DNA from: Parabacteroides sp.
GTDB taxonomy: Bacteria > Bacteroidota > Bacteroidia > Bacteroidales > Tannerellaceae
Assembly (NCBI GenBank): GCA_020026285.1
Contig: JAHHQS010000135.1
Coordinates: 1-10,272 of the forward strand
Reading direction: 5' to 3'
Length of the DNA: 10,272 nt
The notes under the pieces were generated by a model. It was not told the DNA's origin, made no database searches, and saw only the letters and a list, made by a program, of their open reading frames with translations. How positions within the stretch are numbered: position 1 is the stretch's first letter; each line of letters starts with the position of its first letter. Position numbers and translations under genes: made by a program. This document shows positions 4,190-10,272 of the stretch, one piece after another.

Positions 4190-4740
4190 AATGCAATACC
4201 TTCTTTCTTCAAAAAGTCTTTCAGACGAATTCGAGTTCGGTGAAGCATGGATTTTACTTTTTCTTCCCGAAAACCATATGTTACTGAAATTGTTTTAATA
4301 GAATCACAGAACCAGTATTTTCTTATAAAGACATTTCTGCTTTCGGCTGATTCCGTTTTGAGAAACTTACTAATAGCTGCACTGATATCCTCATTACAAA
4401 TTTTCTCTTCAATTTGACTGTCAGAGAGTACAGATTCCAGCTCATCAAAAGAAAAAAGTAACTCCGGAGTTCTCTTTCGTGCCATATTATAGTCTAAACG
4501 CTTTAATGACAGATTACGTGTTATTTTACAAAGAAACGCCATAAAATTATTCGGCTTTTTCGGCGGAATTGTGTTCCAAGCACCAAGATAAGTATCATTT
4601 ACACACTCTTCTGCATCCTCAATATTAAAGAGAATATTATGCGCAATGTGAAAACAAAGTTTTCCATATTTATTGCCGGTTTCCCGAATGGCAGCTTCAT
4701 CTCTTGCAAAATATAATTCAATAATTTGAAAGTCCTCCAT
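4186..4740 (-). CDS. ECF (group 4) RNA polymerase sigma factor
   Basis: The 184-residue product has region 2 and region 4 only. Region 2.2 is visible as DAEECVNDTYLGAWN (42-56) and regions 2.3-2.4 as FMAFLCKITRNLSLKRLDY (66-84). A linker with the FSFDELES pattern follows, then region 4 at about 120-178, including NVFIRKYWFCDSIKTIS and EEKVKSMLHRTRIRLKDFL. This combination is typical of a large clostridial ECF group whose partner is a DEDL...KWIAVAA-type membrane protein, as found next door. An excellent AGGAGGTG lies seven bases before the ATG at 4740. It is first in an operon with the partner gene (4-base overlap) and probably DUF2500. It is not a recent copy of the sigma gene at 2324-2881: the conserved regions differ at most positions. 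Confidence 0.9.
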   Translation of the reverse strand: MEDFQIIELYFARDEAAIRETGNKYGKLCFHIAHNILFNIEDAEECVNDTYLGAWNTIPPKKPNNFMAFLCKITRNLSLKRLDYNMARKRTPELLFSFDELESVLSDSQIEEKICNEDISAAISKFLKTESAESRNVFIRKYWFCDSIKTISVTYGFREEKVKSMLHRTRIRLKDFLKKEGIAL

Positions 4741-4767
4741 ACATTCACCTCCTGTTCGTGTTTTTCT

Positions 4768-4852
4768 GAAAGGCCTTTCTACCTATTCAGTACGGTTTTA
4801 GAATGAAAAGTTTCGCAAATTGAAAATTTTTAAATATCTGTTTTAGAAAGGC
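4768..4852 (-). promoter_or_regulatory. Leader of the second sigma operon with competing inverted repeats
   Basis: Between the promoter at 4904-4912 and the sigma start at 4740 lie about 155 transcribed bases with no gene. A perfect 12-bp palindrome GAAAGGCCTTTC sits at 4768-4779, about 15 bases before the ribosome binding site. Half of it can also pair over a distance: GCCTTTCT (4773-4780) is complementary to AGAAAGGC (4845-4852). The two pairings exclude each other. It may be an operator, an RNA switch in the leader, or chance; no known riboswitch class was recognised. Confidence 0.3.
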
Positions 4853-4903
4853 AGATTTGTAACTGTTAAAAAATTTTTGAAATGTTTAATGTGGTCTTTC
4901 AGT

Positions 4904-4912
4904 ATTATATCA
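4904..4912 (-). promoter_or_regulatory. Extended -10 promoter of the second sigma operon
   Basis: TGATATAAT on the minus strand is a full TGnTATAAT element. At 17-base spacing the -35 position reads TTATAA, a three-of-six match. It lies about 165 bases before the sigma start, which leaves a long leader, and it overlaps the 3' end of the doubtful open frame at 4910-5164. Confidence 0.5.
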
Positions 4913-5164
4913 TATTGCTTTAAATTTTATAAAGTCTTTCTCAAGCGTTATTAAATGGGAACTGATTACTGTCTTGTTTCCACTGTATCTGAATAAAAGA
5001 AAAGCCGAGAAGATCCTTTTACAGTCCTTCTCGGTAATTTTCTCGTCCAGCTGCAATGCTCTCTGTCCTAATTTCGGTAAGCTGTCCTTAAAACCTATAC
5101 TTTCAGGCAATATCTTTTTCGATAACAACAAATAGTCTTTTATACTATATTGCTTTCCCTTGTT
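4910..5164 (-). pseudogene. Open frame without a proper start, possible gene remnant
   Basis: A minus-strand frame is open from after a stop at 5165-5167 to a stop at 4910. It contains no ATG start; the only candidate is a TTG at 5131 with no ribosome binding site, giving 73 residues (LGQRALQLDEKITEKDCKRI, then ISSHLITLEKDFIKFK near the end). The amino acid mix is believable for a real helical C-terminal piece, so this may be the tail of a decayed gene. It could equally be a chance open frame, since its end overlaps the promoter of the second sigma operon. No family was recognised. Confidence 0.3.
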
Positions 5165-5471
5165 TTAATTGCTTATATAATATAGTTTTTTCAAATTTTT
5201 ATCTATTTCTTATGCGTATAAGTCCCCTATGAAATAGGTAACCCACCTTTCTTAACAGTCAAACAGGTTGCCTCATTAATATTATTTCTTACTCTGATTT
5301 TATAAACAAATAAATTTATCCAAATTGGCGAAACTCTCAAGATGCCATATTCTAAAATAGAATCAGAAGAATTTTCTGTTTTCAACAGGTATAGATTAAT
5401 TTAGATAGTAAATTGATTCAAATCATTTGCACTTTGGAAGTTGAAAATGATGAGCTTTCTTGTATAAGAAT
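5165..5471. other. Non-coding gap of about 300 bases with small palindromes
   Basis: No gene is supported on either strand. Small structures seen are CTTAT-GCGT-ATAAG (5209-5222), CCTAT-GAA-ATAGG (5226-5238), a wobble-paired AGGTAACC ... GGTTGCCT, and TGATT-CA-AATCA. A 7-bp inverted repeat CTATATT/AATATAG (5145-5151 with 5179-5185) straddles the left boundary. None has the shape of a known RNA or attachment site. The gap separates the regulatory genes from the nuclease/ATPase cassette and may hold its insertion boundary. Confidence 0.4.
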
Positions 5472-5520
5472 GTAACACATTGTTTGTGCTACTCTAACCA
5501 CATAGCGGTAAACTGTGATT
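5472..5520 (-). terminator. Tandem hairpins after the PIN gene, probable end of the cassette transcript
   Basis: On the minus strand a 7-bp stem with one G-U pair (5520-5514 with 5502-5496) begins at the PIN stop codon. Next comes a stronger 8-bp stem with one G-U pair and a 5-base loop (5492-5485 with 5479-5472), followed by a loose ATTCTTAT tract. The T tract is poor, so termination may be partial; the two stems could also protect the 3' end of the message. Confidence 0.4.
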
Positions 5521-7349
5521 TAATTGTCCGCTTTCCGCTTTAAACGCGCATCGAGATCATTTACAATTTTTTGCTCTTTATTAAATTCTTCTTTTAACTC
5601 TACAACTAGTCTTTTTAGAGCATTCACAACATCGTCCGCCTCATATTCAATACTATCCTCAACGCCATCTGATGCTCCACCATCTTCATCGAAGTTCAGA
5701 TAACCAACAATCAGATTTACATATCCCCTTGCGAGCATTTCCTTGTCCTCTAAAAGAAAGATGTTGATCCGTTCTTCTGACCCAGCTTCTGGTGTCCCTC
5801 GAAGTTCATCAAAAAACAGAGTATAAACTTTATCATCCGTTCCAAAGATTTTTATATTTTCTCCATATTTAATAGAATCAGGAAGCTTTCTCTCTGTTCT
5901 TTGTGATATCGATTCCTCTTTACAGAGTATCCAATATCTAACGTTTTTCAAATTTTCATCAGTGTTCGTGCAAGATAAATCCATTGAACTACTTGTCACA
6001 GAGGAAAAGGCATTAATAAATGCTTTAGCATCGTCTTCTTTCATCTCATTTTCTATCTGGGTATCAAATTCATCATACCGTAGCAGTAAATCTTCATAAT
6101 CAGATGAAATACCATTATATTGCTCGAAAACCTTAAGTATTTCTTGTGCTATGCTTGATTCATTTAAGTCCTCTGCTAAAACATCAGCATATTTTGATAG
6201 GGGAACAAACCCCAATTCTTCCCTGTCGGCATCCTCAAATTCTCTGTATAAATTTTCTTGCTCGTCGTCAATTTCAACTCTGCTTTCTCGTGAATCTCCT
6301 CCCAGCACAATGGTGAAAGGCAACACTCTTATTTCACCAGTTTTGCTATTGAGTTCAACTCTACAAGGAAATCTTACATCATGTTTTTCAAAAATATGTT
6401 TTTGCTCAACAAATACATATTCTTTTTCTTCAGAATCCCAAGGAGCATTGTCAAAATCATCAAAATAACAATCCACGGACATATTACCATGAATCCATAA
6501 AGATGCTGTAATTTCATTCCCGTCTATATCGTCTATTGTGTGAAGATTCATATCTAATAGATTGCAATGTTCCAGGTATGTTTCATCATAGTCATATCCA
6601 TCAGCAACTCCATCTCGATCATATGATAATCCATGCACTTCAACACAACTATCATCAATCATATCGCTAATTGTCTGCTTAATAGAATCATAGCTTCTCT
6701 TTATATGTTCAAGTGCAGCAGTATATTCTTTTTCGTTTTTGCTTAATGTGTCAAAGAGCTCTCCTAAAGAAGAAAAGAACATATGGTTTTTACTGTTGGT
6801 ACACGCTTTTATGAACCCATGATCCTGACTAACGATTGCTACAGTCTCATCGTTACCAAAGCGCTTTTTAATCTCTTCAGCAATAAAAGCATCTGGAAAT
6901 TCTTTCCTTTTTTTCTCACTATTCTCAAAAGGCGGACGAACAGAAAAATAATCTTCTAGAATTTTTTCAAGGTTTATACCACATGTATCAAGTCTTTCAA
7001 CATTGCAATCTTCCAAAAATTTTTCAAATACATCTTTTGCACTTTTATGGATAGTTTCCTTATCTGGTATCTGAACATATATCCCCATTCCAATATCAAC
7101 TAAATATTGTTCTGAAAGTTTGTCCAGATATTCTTTTCTTAATTTTCTTGCTTTTCCGCATACGCTATCAACACTTCGACATATATGTTTTTCTACTTCA
7201 CTTATTACGATATTGCTTAGTACGAGCTTGATTTTGCCATTTTGAACATTTTTAACAAGCAAGCCCATCGTACTATCTGTGCTAAAATCATATTTGTTTG
7301 CTTCAAATATATTTGTATCTATCGTAACATTTAAAGGGTATTTTATCAT
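5520..7349 (-). CDS. PIN-domain (DUF4935-like) predicted ribonuclease with long acidic extension
   Basis: The 609-residue product has an N-terminal PIN domain at about residues 1-200. The expected metal-binding acids are all visible: D11 in VTIDTN, E51 in VISEVEKH, D153 in FPDAFIAEE and D176 in VSQDHGF. This set and the SxVxxEVxxH-type helix fit the DUF4935 PIN-like group, whose members often occur in defence islands. Known PIN domains cut single-stranded RNA with Mg2+ or Mn2+. Residues 200-600 are a long, strongly acidic extension with a beta-rich part (SVDCYFDDFDNAPWDSEEKE, then RVLPFTIVLGGDSR) and a helical, coil-prone end. Most toxin PIN proteins are only about 130 residues. It is third in the cassette, 65 bases after the ATPase gene. 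The start at 7349 is forced, since an in-frame TGA lies just upstream, yet its binding site is weak (GATGGTG). RNA cleavage as the killing or sensing step is inference. Confidence 0.8.
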   Translation of the reverse strand: MIKYPLNVTIDTNIFEANKYDFSTDSTMGLLVKNVQNGKIKLVLSNIVISEVEKHICRSVDSVCGKARKLRKEYLDKLSEQYLVDIGMGIYVQIPDKETIHKSAKDVFEKFLEDCNVERLDTCGINLEKILEDYFSVRPPFENSEKKRKEFPDAFIAEEIKKRFGNDETVAIVSQDHGFIKACTNSKNHMFFSSLGELFDTLSKNEKEYTAALEHIKRSYDSIKQTISDMIDDSCVEVHGLSYDRDGVADGYDYDETYLEHCNLLDMNLHTIDDIDGNEITASLWIHGNMSVDCYFDDFDNAPWDSEEKEYVFVEQKHIFEKHDVRFPCRVELNSKTGEIRVLPFTIVLGGDSRESRVEIDDEQENLYREFEDADREELGFVPLSKYADVLAEDLNESSIAQEILKVFEQYNGISSDYEDLLLRYDEFDTQIENEMKEDDAKAFINAFSSVTSSSMDLSCTNTDENLKNVRYWILCKEESISQRTERKLPDSIKYGENIKIFGTDDKVYTLFFDELRGTPEAGSEERINIFLLEDKEMLARGYVNLIVGYLNFDEDGGASDGVEDSIEYEADDVVNALKRLVVELKEEFNKEQKIVNDLDARLKRKADN

Positions 7350-7413
7350 TTTTCACACCATCGCAACTACAAAATACAGCGCAATTCATTTCCTTTCTTG
7401 TCCAAATTTTTCT

Positions 7414-7441
7414 ATTATACCGAGATTGTTTGATTCAACAA
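7414..7441 (-). promoter_or_regulatory. Possible internal promoter for the PIN gene
   Basis: On the minus strand a TATAAT (7419-7414) overlaps the ATPase stop codon, with TTGTTG (7441-7436) 16 bases upstream. It lies about 65 bases before the PIN start. The -35 match is only partial, so this is a candidate only; if real, PIN protein could be made independently of the nuclease and ATPase. Confidence 0.3.
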
Positions 7442-8872
7442 CTGACCATTTAGTTCAATTACATGCTCGTTTGGTACATAGTGATAAATTGAGGCGATAA
7501 TAATCTGATTATCTGAGAAATCTCTTTGCAGAATCTGCATCATCTTGCCAATATTCATTTCGTCAACTTCTTTTCCACTCGGAGAATCCAAAAAAATAGG
7601 CAATTTGATCCCAAGAACTTTTTCAATTTCAATAATGTATGCAAGCCGAAAAGAAAACACGGTTTTGTGCAGAACCGCTCCTGACAATTCCTTTAGGTTG
7701 CTTGTAAAGAGATACTTCCAAGTCATTTTTTCGGCATCAGTATCTCCCAACTCACCCATATATTTTTGTACTGTTTTTATCATGGACTGAGTTACATTGT
7801 TGCCATCATTGGTAATTTGAGAGATTTGACTGTTTAGTGTACGCCTCTCTTTTTCCAAGTCACCAATTATTCTTTTCACATCAATTGGGCTAATATCGAC
7901 CTCATTCATCTTTCGATCAAAAACATCAGCCAAAGATTCCGTTGGGAATAGTGATAGTTGTTGTTCCTCTTCTCTAATCTCAAGTTCTATCTTTTCGATT
8001 TCTTTAAGTATTCTTTCTAATTTCGGAATAAGTAGTCTTTTCTTTGCCTGCAGGAAATCGATACTGTCTGTTGCTCCGATAATCATGTCACGAGTAACGC
8101 AGATTTCTTGTCCAGTTTCAAGCCTAATTACCAGCTTCATATCATCGATGAGTTCGATGGCTTTTTTATTGTTTTTTATATTTTCATCAAGTCGTCTAAT
8201 CTCTTTTTTTATTTGATCTCTTTCAACTTTGAGCTGATCCTGCATCAAAAGCCGGTCACGGTTGTAGCTGTTTTTTGTTAATGAACGCTCCGCAGAAGCG
8301 ATAGATTCTCTATATTCGGCTATATTTAATATTTGCTTATACTTCTTGATATTTTCTTCAACTTTCTTTTTTCTCAACAGAAGATCTGCACAGTTTCGTC
8401 CTGACAGGCCTCTGATAAGCTCGTCAATATTAAAATGTATTCCAGCTATGGCTTTACCTCGATTTAACAGTGTCCAGCCCTTCTCTTGATCAGCATAGAT
8501 TGCTCCAAGCAGGTTATTAAGTATATCCTCATTGTCGGTTTCAAAGATTTTCTCATGCAGTTCTTTGATTTGCATAGGGAGTACAAATGAATATCGTGCA
8601 TCTGTTTCTGTGAGTTCGATGGAATCAGCTGTCTCTCTATTCAAAGTTACAACGGTTCCATTATCTTTCTCTAAAACAAGTCTAACTCTGCAAGATTCAA
8701 TTTTAAAATTTTTTGTTCCTGGAACAGCATATCCTAATCCGTATAAGATGCATCTCATAAGAGTTGTTTTTCCGGCACTGTTTTTTTCACTGTAAATAAG
8801 GTTAAATCCGGCTTCAAATAACCGTTCTGTACAAAATAGTCCTTGAGATATATATATGGATTTTATTTTCAT
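7415..8872 (-). CDS. SMC/Rad50-like ABC ATPase of a probable conflict system
   Basis: The 485-residue product has ABC-type ATPase halves at both ends and a coiled coil between. Walker A is at 29-36 (EKNSAGKT), with the first glycine replaced by Glu. A Q-loop-like ADQEKGW is at 127-133. A helical coiled coil (about 163-245 and 272-306) surrounds a short non-helical insert. A degenerate signature ELSGAVLHKTVFSF starts at 395, and Walker B LPIFLDSPSGKE (424-435) has Ser where the usual catalytic Glu stands. A histidine at 464 sits at the H-loop position. There is no CxxC, so no Rad50 zinc hook. The GKTTLMRCILYGLGYAVPGT pattern and the LDSPSG box recall the ABC ATPases of Lamassu and ABC three-component systems. 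Its ATG overlaps the nuclease stop codon (ATGA) and has a GAGAGG site. The likely role is sensing unusual DNA and switching on the nuclease; that is inference. Confidence 0.82.
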   Translation of the reverse strand: MKIKSIYISQGLFCTERLFEAGFNLIYSEKNSAGKTTLMRCILYGLGYAVPGTKNFKIESCRVRLVLEKDNGTVVTLNRETADSIELTETDARYSFVLPMQIKELHEKIFETDNEDILNNLLGAIYADQEKGWTLLNRGKAIAGIHFNIDELIRGLSGRNCADLLLRKKKVEENIKKYKQILNIAEYRESIASAERSLTKNSYNRDRLLMQDQLKVERDQIKKEIRRLDENIKNNKKAIELIDDMKLVIRLETGQEICVTRDMIIGATDSIDFLQAKKRLLIPKLERILKEIEKIELEIREEEQQLSLFPTESLADVFDRKMNEVDISPIDVKRIIGDLEKERRTLNSQISQITNDGNNVTQSMIKTVQKYMGELGDTDAEKMTWKYLFTSNLKELSGAVLHKTVFSFRLAYIIEIEKVLGIKLPIFLDSPSGKEVDEMNIGKMMQILQRDFSDNQIIIASIYHYVPNEHVIELNGQLLNQTISV

Positions 8873-9876
8873 AACGATACCTCTCTACTTATATTGTTAA
8901 TCAAATATCTTTGCTGAATTATTTTTGCGAGAACAACCTTTGTAACAGCCTCTTGAACTTCCTCATCTAAGGCTTCTAAGGAAAAAGCAGAAATATAATC
9001 TTTCCACTTTTCCTTAATGAATTTGCGAGTACGCTCTTTCATCGGCAAAGCATAATTTGACGAATTATTATAGTCATATAGGATTTTTGTTATAAGATCA
9101 TATTGCTCTGTATTATTATTTACTAGATAAGAATATTGAGATGTTACCTCATTTATAAAACCCTGGTCATATTCATCAATGTATTCCGATGGCAGTTGCT
9201 TGCCTAATGTCAATACAATAACCGGCCATACAATTTCTTTTTTACTCAGTTTTATCGTTATATCCGTTTGAGACCCATTATGAAAAAGATCATTTTGCCA
9301 AACCTGCATAAGTTCTGTTACACTTAAGACCTGTCCTAAGTTTAGCTGATTAATAAAGTCTCTAATTTTTTCTTCAATTACTTTGTATCTCGTCTTTAAA
9401 TTATCTGTTTCAAACATAAAATAGTATATTTGAAATTTATCCTTATTAAATGAGATATTGAGTCGTTCAACAATTTCATCAATTATCTTCTTTGCTTCAT
9501 CAGATAAATCACGATAGCCAACTAATGTTGGGGGACCATAGAAAAAACTTTTTGAGGTATCCTCCTTGAGTGGATTTTTTGAATTCGTGATTAGAATCAA
9601 TTGCTCCACTGACTTACCATCAGCCTCTGAGAGTGTTTTTATGGCTTTCTTAAGATTACTTCGAACATTAGAAAAATCACTGCTTCCTTTTACAACAGAT
9701 TTTGCCTGAGCCATAATGCTATTTCCATTATTCATAGTAAGCTGAATATCTTCGGAGGGACCCTCCATTCGAATTTTTTCAACATCTTTTATATTATCAA
9801 GTAATAAAAAAATTGTCGCATTGACTTGAAAATCAAATCCAAATAATTCTGGACTTGCATTAGAACTCTTAGCCAT
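8869..9876 (-). CDS. PD-(D/E)xK predicted nuclease, DUF4297/Cap4-like
   Basis: The 335-residue product opens with the pattern of the dsDNA-endonuclease domain found in Cap4 and DUF4297 proteins: GFDFQVNATIFLLL (13-26), then RMEGPSEDIQL (36-46) and NGNSIMAQAKSV (50-61). E42-D43 and Q57-x-K59 are the expected metal- and phosphate-handling residues, and E38 is a further candidate acid. A second alpha/beta stretch follows (VEQLILITNSKN at about 90-101). The last 200 residues are mainly helical and unrecognised; they may bind the ATPase or a signal. Cap4 family members degrade duplex DNA when activated. It is the first gene of the cassette, with a good extended -10 promoter and an AGAGAGGG site 7-10 bases before its ATG, and its stop overlaps the ATPase start. 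There is no SAVED domain, so cyclic-nucleotide control as in CBASS is unlikely. Confidence 0.78.
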   Translation of the reverse strand: MAKSSNASPELFGFDFQVNATIFLLLDNIKDVEKIRMEGPSEDIQLTMNNGNSIMAQAKSVVKGSSDFSNVRSNLKKAIKTLSEADGKSVEQLILITNSKNPLKEDTSKSFFYGPPTLVGYRDLSDEAKKIIDEIVERLNISFNKDKFQIYYFMFETDNLKTRYKVIEEKIRDFINQLNLGQVLSVTELMQVWQNDLFHNGSQTDITIKLSKKEIVWPVIVLTLGKQLPSEYIDEYDQGFINEVTSQYSYLVNNNTEQYDLITKILYDYNNSSNYALPMKERTRKFIKEKWKDYISAFSLEALDEEVQEAVTKVVLAKIIQQRYLINNISREVSL

Positions 9877-9946
9877 TGTTGTTCCCTCTCTTTACACTTA
9901 TATTATATTTTCTCCAGTATACACCTCATATTTTACTTTAAAATTA

Positions 9947-9955
9947 ATTATATCA
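9947..9955 (-). promoter_or_regulatory. Extended -10 promoter of the nuclease/ATPase/PIN cassette
   Basis: TGATATAAT on the minus strand is a full TGnTATAAT element about 70 bases before the nuclease start at 9876, leaving a leader of about 64 bases. The -35 position is poor. A second TATAAT (9907-9902) is too close to the start and lacks both a -35 box and a TG extension. The nine bases are identical to the promoter core of the second sigma operon at 4904-4912. Confidence 0.55.
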
Positions 9956-10168
9956 TAGCTTTTAAAAAAATACTAACTATTTTCAACGTGGTACTTTCGA
10001 GTTTTCACTATGGAAATGGTTTATTTCTCGTCAAATGAATGTCCTGCCTAAAAAATAAGGAGTAAGCACAAAGAAGCGCTCCTGTACATAGTTATGTATA
10101 AATCTATTCAACAGTCACAATTTTAATTAATCTTTTGCTGATATGTTCATCCACTTAACCAGCTGCAT
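9956..10168. other. Non-coding region upstream of the cassette
   Basis: Nothing gene-like is supported on either strand. A small palindrome TACATA-GT-TATGTA is at 10085-10098, and short inverted bases AGGAG/CTCCT flank a stretch near 10060-10083. No attachment-site repeat matching the left flank (5165-5519) was found by eye. Confidence 0.4.
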
Positions 10169-10272
10169 TTAATTTTCGTCCTTAAGTTGTTCGTGAAAAA
10201 GAGCGGGACGCAGTGTGATTACATTTTCATAAGTAGAAAATGAGATGGTTTTTATTTGATTAACAACTGTGC
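10169..10272 (-). CDS. Possible C-terminal end of an unidentified protein, cut by the window edge
   Basis: A minus-strand frame is open from the right edge to a TAA at 10171-10169. It encodes 33 residues (including STYENVITLRPALFHEQLKD) that read like ordinary protein sequence. With so little visible, no family can be named and a chance open frame is possible. If real, it is the gene before the cassette on the same strand, about 290 bases away. Confidence 0.3.
   Translation of the reverse strand, partial: TVVNQIKTISFSTYENVITLRPALFHEQLKDEN

Follow-up and report, generated by a model that had tools for sequence, protein, structure and literature searches.

The window analysed here is the whole of a 10,272-nucleotide stretch of Parabacteroides sp. 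DNA (contig JAHHQS010000135.1). It carries a cassette of three genes, termed A, B and PIN, all on the minus strand and in that order. The first two overlap by 4 bases (ATGA, 8869-8872) and the third follows 65 bases on, in agreement with an earlier, sequence-only reading of this DNA. A and B are predicted to form a two-gene, LmuC-less Lamassu system, which is an ordinary and known type of defence pair. Added to it is a gene for a predicted RNA-cutting PIN protein, possibly a passenger and possibly a second weapon.

The A-B pair and the PIN protein

The adjacent genes A and B are matched full length by the PADLOC profiles PDC-M46A and PDC-M46B; PDC-M46 membership here means model matches on adjacent genes. 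For B, PDC-M46B gave 1.4e-179 and the best LmuB model 2.5e-16. Structure comparison with PDB 9ux7/9ux8 found the LmuA fold over most of A, which has the N-terminal enzyme domain and C-terminal part that define LmuA, and B is the SMC/Rad50-like ATPase that defines LmuB. Family is assigned by profile and fold, and the active-site residues are intact. Among 79 relatives of A, E38 is kept in 77, D43 in 76, Q57 in 79 and K59 in 78, the exceptions being gaps and one Tyr at D43. As for B, the Walker A residues N31, G34 and K35 are kept in 78 of 80 relatives (two gaps), and the Walker B Asp-Ser-Pro at 429-431 in 79 (one gap). The Walker B glutamate is replaced by Ser in window B and in those 79 relatives, and also in PDB 9ux7_A.

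Neither window B nor the best B frame at any of the 80 loci contains a CxxC zinc hook. This feature is optional, being found in many Lamassu homologues and not in all, according to the available part of a review (PMC10586767). No LmuC-type small middle protein lies between the overlapping genes, and the same part of the review reports LmuC to be lacking in some Lamassu systems.

The sequence-only reading had called a Cap4/PD-(D/E)xK-type nuclease, a short-coil ABC/SMC-like ATPase, a likely defence role and a relation to Lamassu, all of which are upheld. It had also taken the missing middle protein to make the set unusual. This part is not supported, as the two-gene form is known from PADLOC PDC-M46, from the LmuAB-DNA structure 9ux7 and from the review.

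The third protein matches Pfam PIN_12 (PF16289) above cut-off and, on that profile match, is a genuine PIN_12 member. The PIN acids D11, E51, D153 and D176 are present and invariant across 17 aligned sequences, which upholds the earlier call of a PIN nuclease with intact acids. The middle and C-terminal parts have no Pfam match above cut-off. PADLOC assigned no system to the protein and matched no M46 model to it, the only match being DrmB at 16.8 bits. Foldseek with the whole PIN model found nothing under E 0.001. In a second structure search, VapC toxins were among the PIN proteins that the PIN domain resembles, with residues past ~208 barely covered. The fold assignment is therefore based on Pfam and this second search, and no fold is claimed for the rest of the protein because the search barely reaches it. 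RNA is the predicted substrate. There is no sign of a VapBC-type small antitoxin gene: the 65-base gap holds no frame of at least 60 amino acids, the upstream neighbour is the 485-residue ATPase, and downstream the scan covered frames of 60 amino acids or more.

Table 1. Features of the cassette (positions in the window)
Feature	Position	Strand	Remarks
A, LmuA-like effector, 335 amino acids	8869..9876	-	N-terminal Cap4/DUF4297-type PD-(D/E)xK nuclease (E38, D43, Q57, K59) and helical C-terminal part
B, LmuB-like SMC/Rad50-type ATPase, 485 amino acids	7415..8872	-	no CxxC hook motif; Walker B Asp-Ser; AAA_23 and PDC-M46B profile matches
PIN protein, 609 amino acids	5520..7349	-	PIN_12 domain ~1-200, middle part ~215-380, C-terminal part ~370-609
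B-PIN intergenic stretch, 65 bases	7350..7414	-	30 bases in the related locus L001
Extended -10 motif TGATATAAT upstream of A	9947..9955	-	no recognised -35; weak evidence
Terminator-like hairpin 3' of PIN	5472..5492	-	poor T tail; terminator-type site scan

The extended -10 motif TGATATAAT (9955-9947) ends 70 bases upstream of the A start codon. It is absent from the results of a promoter scan that also requires a -35. As that scan gave 33 promoter-like sites where shuffled sequences gave 23.5 on average, the case for a promoter is weak. Of the single extended -10 promoter proposed earlier, the motif is there and the -35 is not recognised. Terminator-like sites in 4700-10272 number 5, where shuffled sequences average 1.8. 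Rfam gave no match at gathering score and a tRNA gene search found none.

Elsewhere in the window, all on the minus strand, are two possible sigma/anti-sigma pairs. At 4740-3503, an ECF-type sigma factor (Sigma70_r2) overlaps by ATGA with a protein of 228 amino acids that lacks a Pfam match and, judged by eye, contains a hydrophobic stretch; this would be a sigma/anti-sigma-like arrangement. At 2881-1588, a second sigma factor of 185 amino acids (Sigma70_r2 and r4_2) is followed by an overlapping 256-residue frame, again with a hydrophobic stretch (by eye). Lastly, 1447-266 encodes one protein with an HTH_3 repressor-like domain and DUF4825, with hydrophobic stretches between them (by eye).

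Neighbourhood of the pair in other genomes

A scan for B relatives, with one genome per species, gave 111 matches, of which 80 were kept. A adjoins B in 79 of these 80 loci, the exception (L029) beginning inside B, and the 4-base overlap is found in 59 of the 79 relatives. The pairing is more than chance. One relative of A (L002, 7779-11461) lies within a 741-residue open frame with ~400 extra N-terminal residues (putative start), next to a B split in two frames.

At 71 loci there is room for a third gene, meaning at least 1 kb after B. A close third gene (same strand, frame of at least 100 amino acids, within 100 bases of B) is present in 28 of them; these include a 222-residue frame in L054, judged a spurious translation, and L064 and L065, which have similar neighbours. 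The Pfam scan, which covered 19 of the 28, found HEPN_Swt1 (L011), PIN_8 (L057), GmrSD_N (L018), TIR with NB-ARC (L037), a trypsin-like protein (L024), AbiJ_NTD4 (L033), DUF4145 (L040), an HsdR-like protein (L039) and a C5 methylase (L074). Others are nitroreductase, flavoprotein, RhuM and Mob_Pre genes, and several more have no Pfam match. L079 and L080 fall into one cluster with the YhcG protein of L046. Ten neighbours, chosen from those up to three genes away from the pair, comprise type I restriction subunits, ResIII helicases, Eco57I/D12/C5 methylases, a YhcG nuclease, a recombinase and an integrase. The content of the slot behind B is thus variable (PIN_8, HEPN, GmrSD, TIR-NLR, protease, restriction-modification). 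Two Clostridia have related proteins of 226-228 amino acids right after the pair (L010, 11450-12136; L015, 11465-12145), that of L010 without Pfam or PADLOC match.

The variety of third genes would suit a PIN gene that is a chance defence-island neighbour, with neither transcript nor function in common with the pair, as would the third genes that PADLOC matches to single-gene candidates (HEC-05 in L018, TIR-NLR in L037, PDC-S32 in L033) and those that look metabolic or mobile. This explanation is improbable, however, given that the PIN_12-type gene of L001 follows its pair in the same order and after a similarly short gap (30 bases, 65 in the window), and that DNA homology between the two is limited to the cassette.

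The PIN gene itself lies behind the pair in 1 of the 71 loci, which rules it out as a fixed system member; it is an occasional partner. The three-gene set recognised by the sequence-only reading is real and recurs in L001. B is missing from 7 genomes in which partial or distant relatives of PIN occur. Amino-acid identity between the window and L001 is 81% for A, 82.5% for B and 61% for PIN. For PIN, the ratio of nonsynonymous to synonymous substitution rates (dN/dS) is ~0.11; at a dS of 2.46, synonymous sites are close to being saturated. Beyond the window and L001, and among the loci scanned, the C-terminal part is matched only in L102 (split) and L103 (L095/L094 in that scan). PIN_12 proteins also occur apart from A-B, for example in L104, where a nearby frame reads like phage terminase (by eye), and in L103 (640-3766), where a 509-residue PIN protein that shares this C-terminal part lies near a TnsD-like gene and is possibly cargo of a Tn7-like element. 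Relatives of PIN are also found in Enterocloster, Thomasclavelia, Clostridium innocuum, Ohessyouella and metagenome contigs.

In the case of mobile DNA, 51 plasmid records have PIN relatives, all below 60% identity and none reaching 80% query coverage. Viral contigs have three (24-28% identity) and phages one match (24.6%), the phage search being made for PIN. Relatives of B below 60% identity are found in 8 plasmid records (H22-H29), which are lactic acid bacteria plasmids of 7.6 to 45.7 kb with 30.7-33.5% identity; in one of them, a protein with a dsDNA nuclease domain is among the features under the B match.

The PIN gene as accessory or second effector

We read the locus as a two-gene Lamassu system with a separately acquired RNase-type defence gene, accessory and self-contained, probably co-transcribed, which would attack RNA with its own trigger, and put this at about 60%. 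The SMC-like LmuB would bind foreign or abnormal DNA, keeping LmuA inactive. On engagement of LmuB, LmuA would be released, assemble and cut DNA, stopping the phage or plasmid, and the cell may die; release and assembly are drawn from PDB titles, general background and the available parts of PMC10586767, PMC12799240 and PMC13092281. The PIN gene, probably on the same transcript, would add an attack on RNA that is likely triggered independently of the pair. The joint attack on DNA and RNA proposed by the sequence-only reading is possible. PIN ribonucleases are published as one- and two-protein defence systems (PMC13092281, available part).

Several observations weigh against a separate, self-contained gene. 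Window 5572-9876 and L001 align at 73% as one DNA block, which begins at the A start and ends inside the PIN gene; the flanks have no DNA match. Five further PIN-bearing contigs equal A- or B-bearing ones in size (4945, 5107, 5856, 10176, 15789), considering the best 120 A and B relatives only. The trio can therefore travel together at times, and in the window and L001, if not elsewhere, the PIN gene now belongs to one block with A-B. The matches in the 7 genomes without B are not of the 609-residue form. PIN's place is taken by PIN_8 in L057 (gap 2) and HEPN_Swt1 in L011 (gap 32), a hint of selection for an RNase partner. As for the pair, the sequence match of B to the LmuB of PDB 9ux7_A is weak (E 0.0095, domain i-Evalue 0.73).

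Most of these points, together with the purifying selection on PIN and the published finding that Lamassu, like other systems, has recruited an added MBL nuclease-protease pair (PMC12799240, available part), would fit PIN as a second effector within one system, in which LmuB engagement licenses the PIN ribonuclease as well as the DNA nuclease for combined DNA and RNA destruction. We regard this as a tentative possibility, since PIN occurs in a single locus of the 71 and has relatives in genomes without B. A common docking part was also not apparent: the PIN profile against the third proteins of L057 and L011, PIN against the A profile, and L057 against L011 gave nothing convincing (best E 0.034-0.46), and PIN resembles those third genes only weakly, over a stretch of its PIN domain. 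That a single LmuB sensing event triggers both nucleases, with RNase partners (PIN_12, PIN_8, HEPN) recruited to the slot more than once, is likewise doubtful. The L057 locus (8982-13242) is a Lamassu-type pair with a 597-residue protein of another PIN family in the same slot.

A guard arrangement, in which A-B restrains a PIN toxin that is released when a phage disables the pair, would agree with the VapC-like PIN domain and its position adjoining the pair. It is very improbable, as the relatives present without B imply that the family needs no B for restraint.

The analysis places an anonymous cassette in a two-gene Lamassu group in which a third gene, of variable type, often follows closely (28/71 loci with room). 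Should such third genes be coupled to LmuB, Lamassu would act as a sensor hub that serves exchangeable effectors encoded by separate genes; otherwise the loci would reflect plain stacking of defence genes. In the literature searched, one paper names PDC-M46. No description of a Lamassu-PIN pair was found in literature titles and abstract beginnings, bioRxiv and most subscription papers being outside the search.

Comparison with known systems

The pair shares a Cap4-type LmuA and an SMC-like LmuB with Lamassu LmuACB, DdmABC and ABC-3C, but lacks the LmuC/middle component and the zinc-hook motif. A three-component ABC-3C reading is ruled out, there being no middle gene. The Walker B glutamate of LmuB is generally replaced by Gln in Lamassu (PMC10586767, available part), whereas window B has Ser. 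Other PIN_12 proteins share the PIN domain, and some of them the middle part as well, but the C-terminal part is matched in few (L102 split, L103, L001). PADLOC PDC-M46 covers both genes of the pair, and differs in having no model for the PIN gene. Finally, LmuAB (9ux7/9ux8) differs in its longer LmuB (562 amino acids vs 485), in very low sequence similarity and in the PIN gene added in the window, but is alike in the LmuA fold along most of A, the LmuB profile match and the Asp-Ser Walker B, and its complex title names LmuA and LmuB only.
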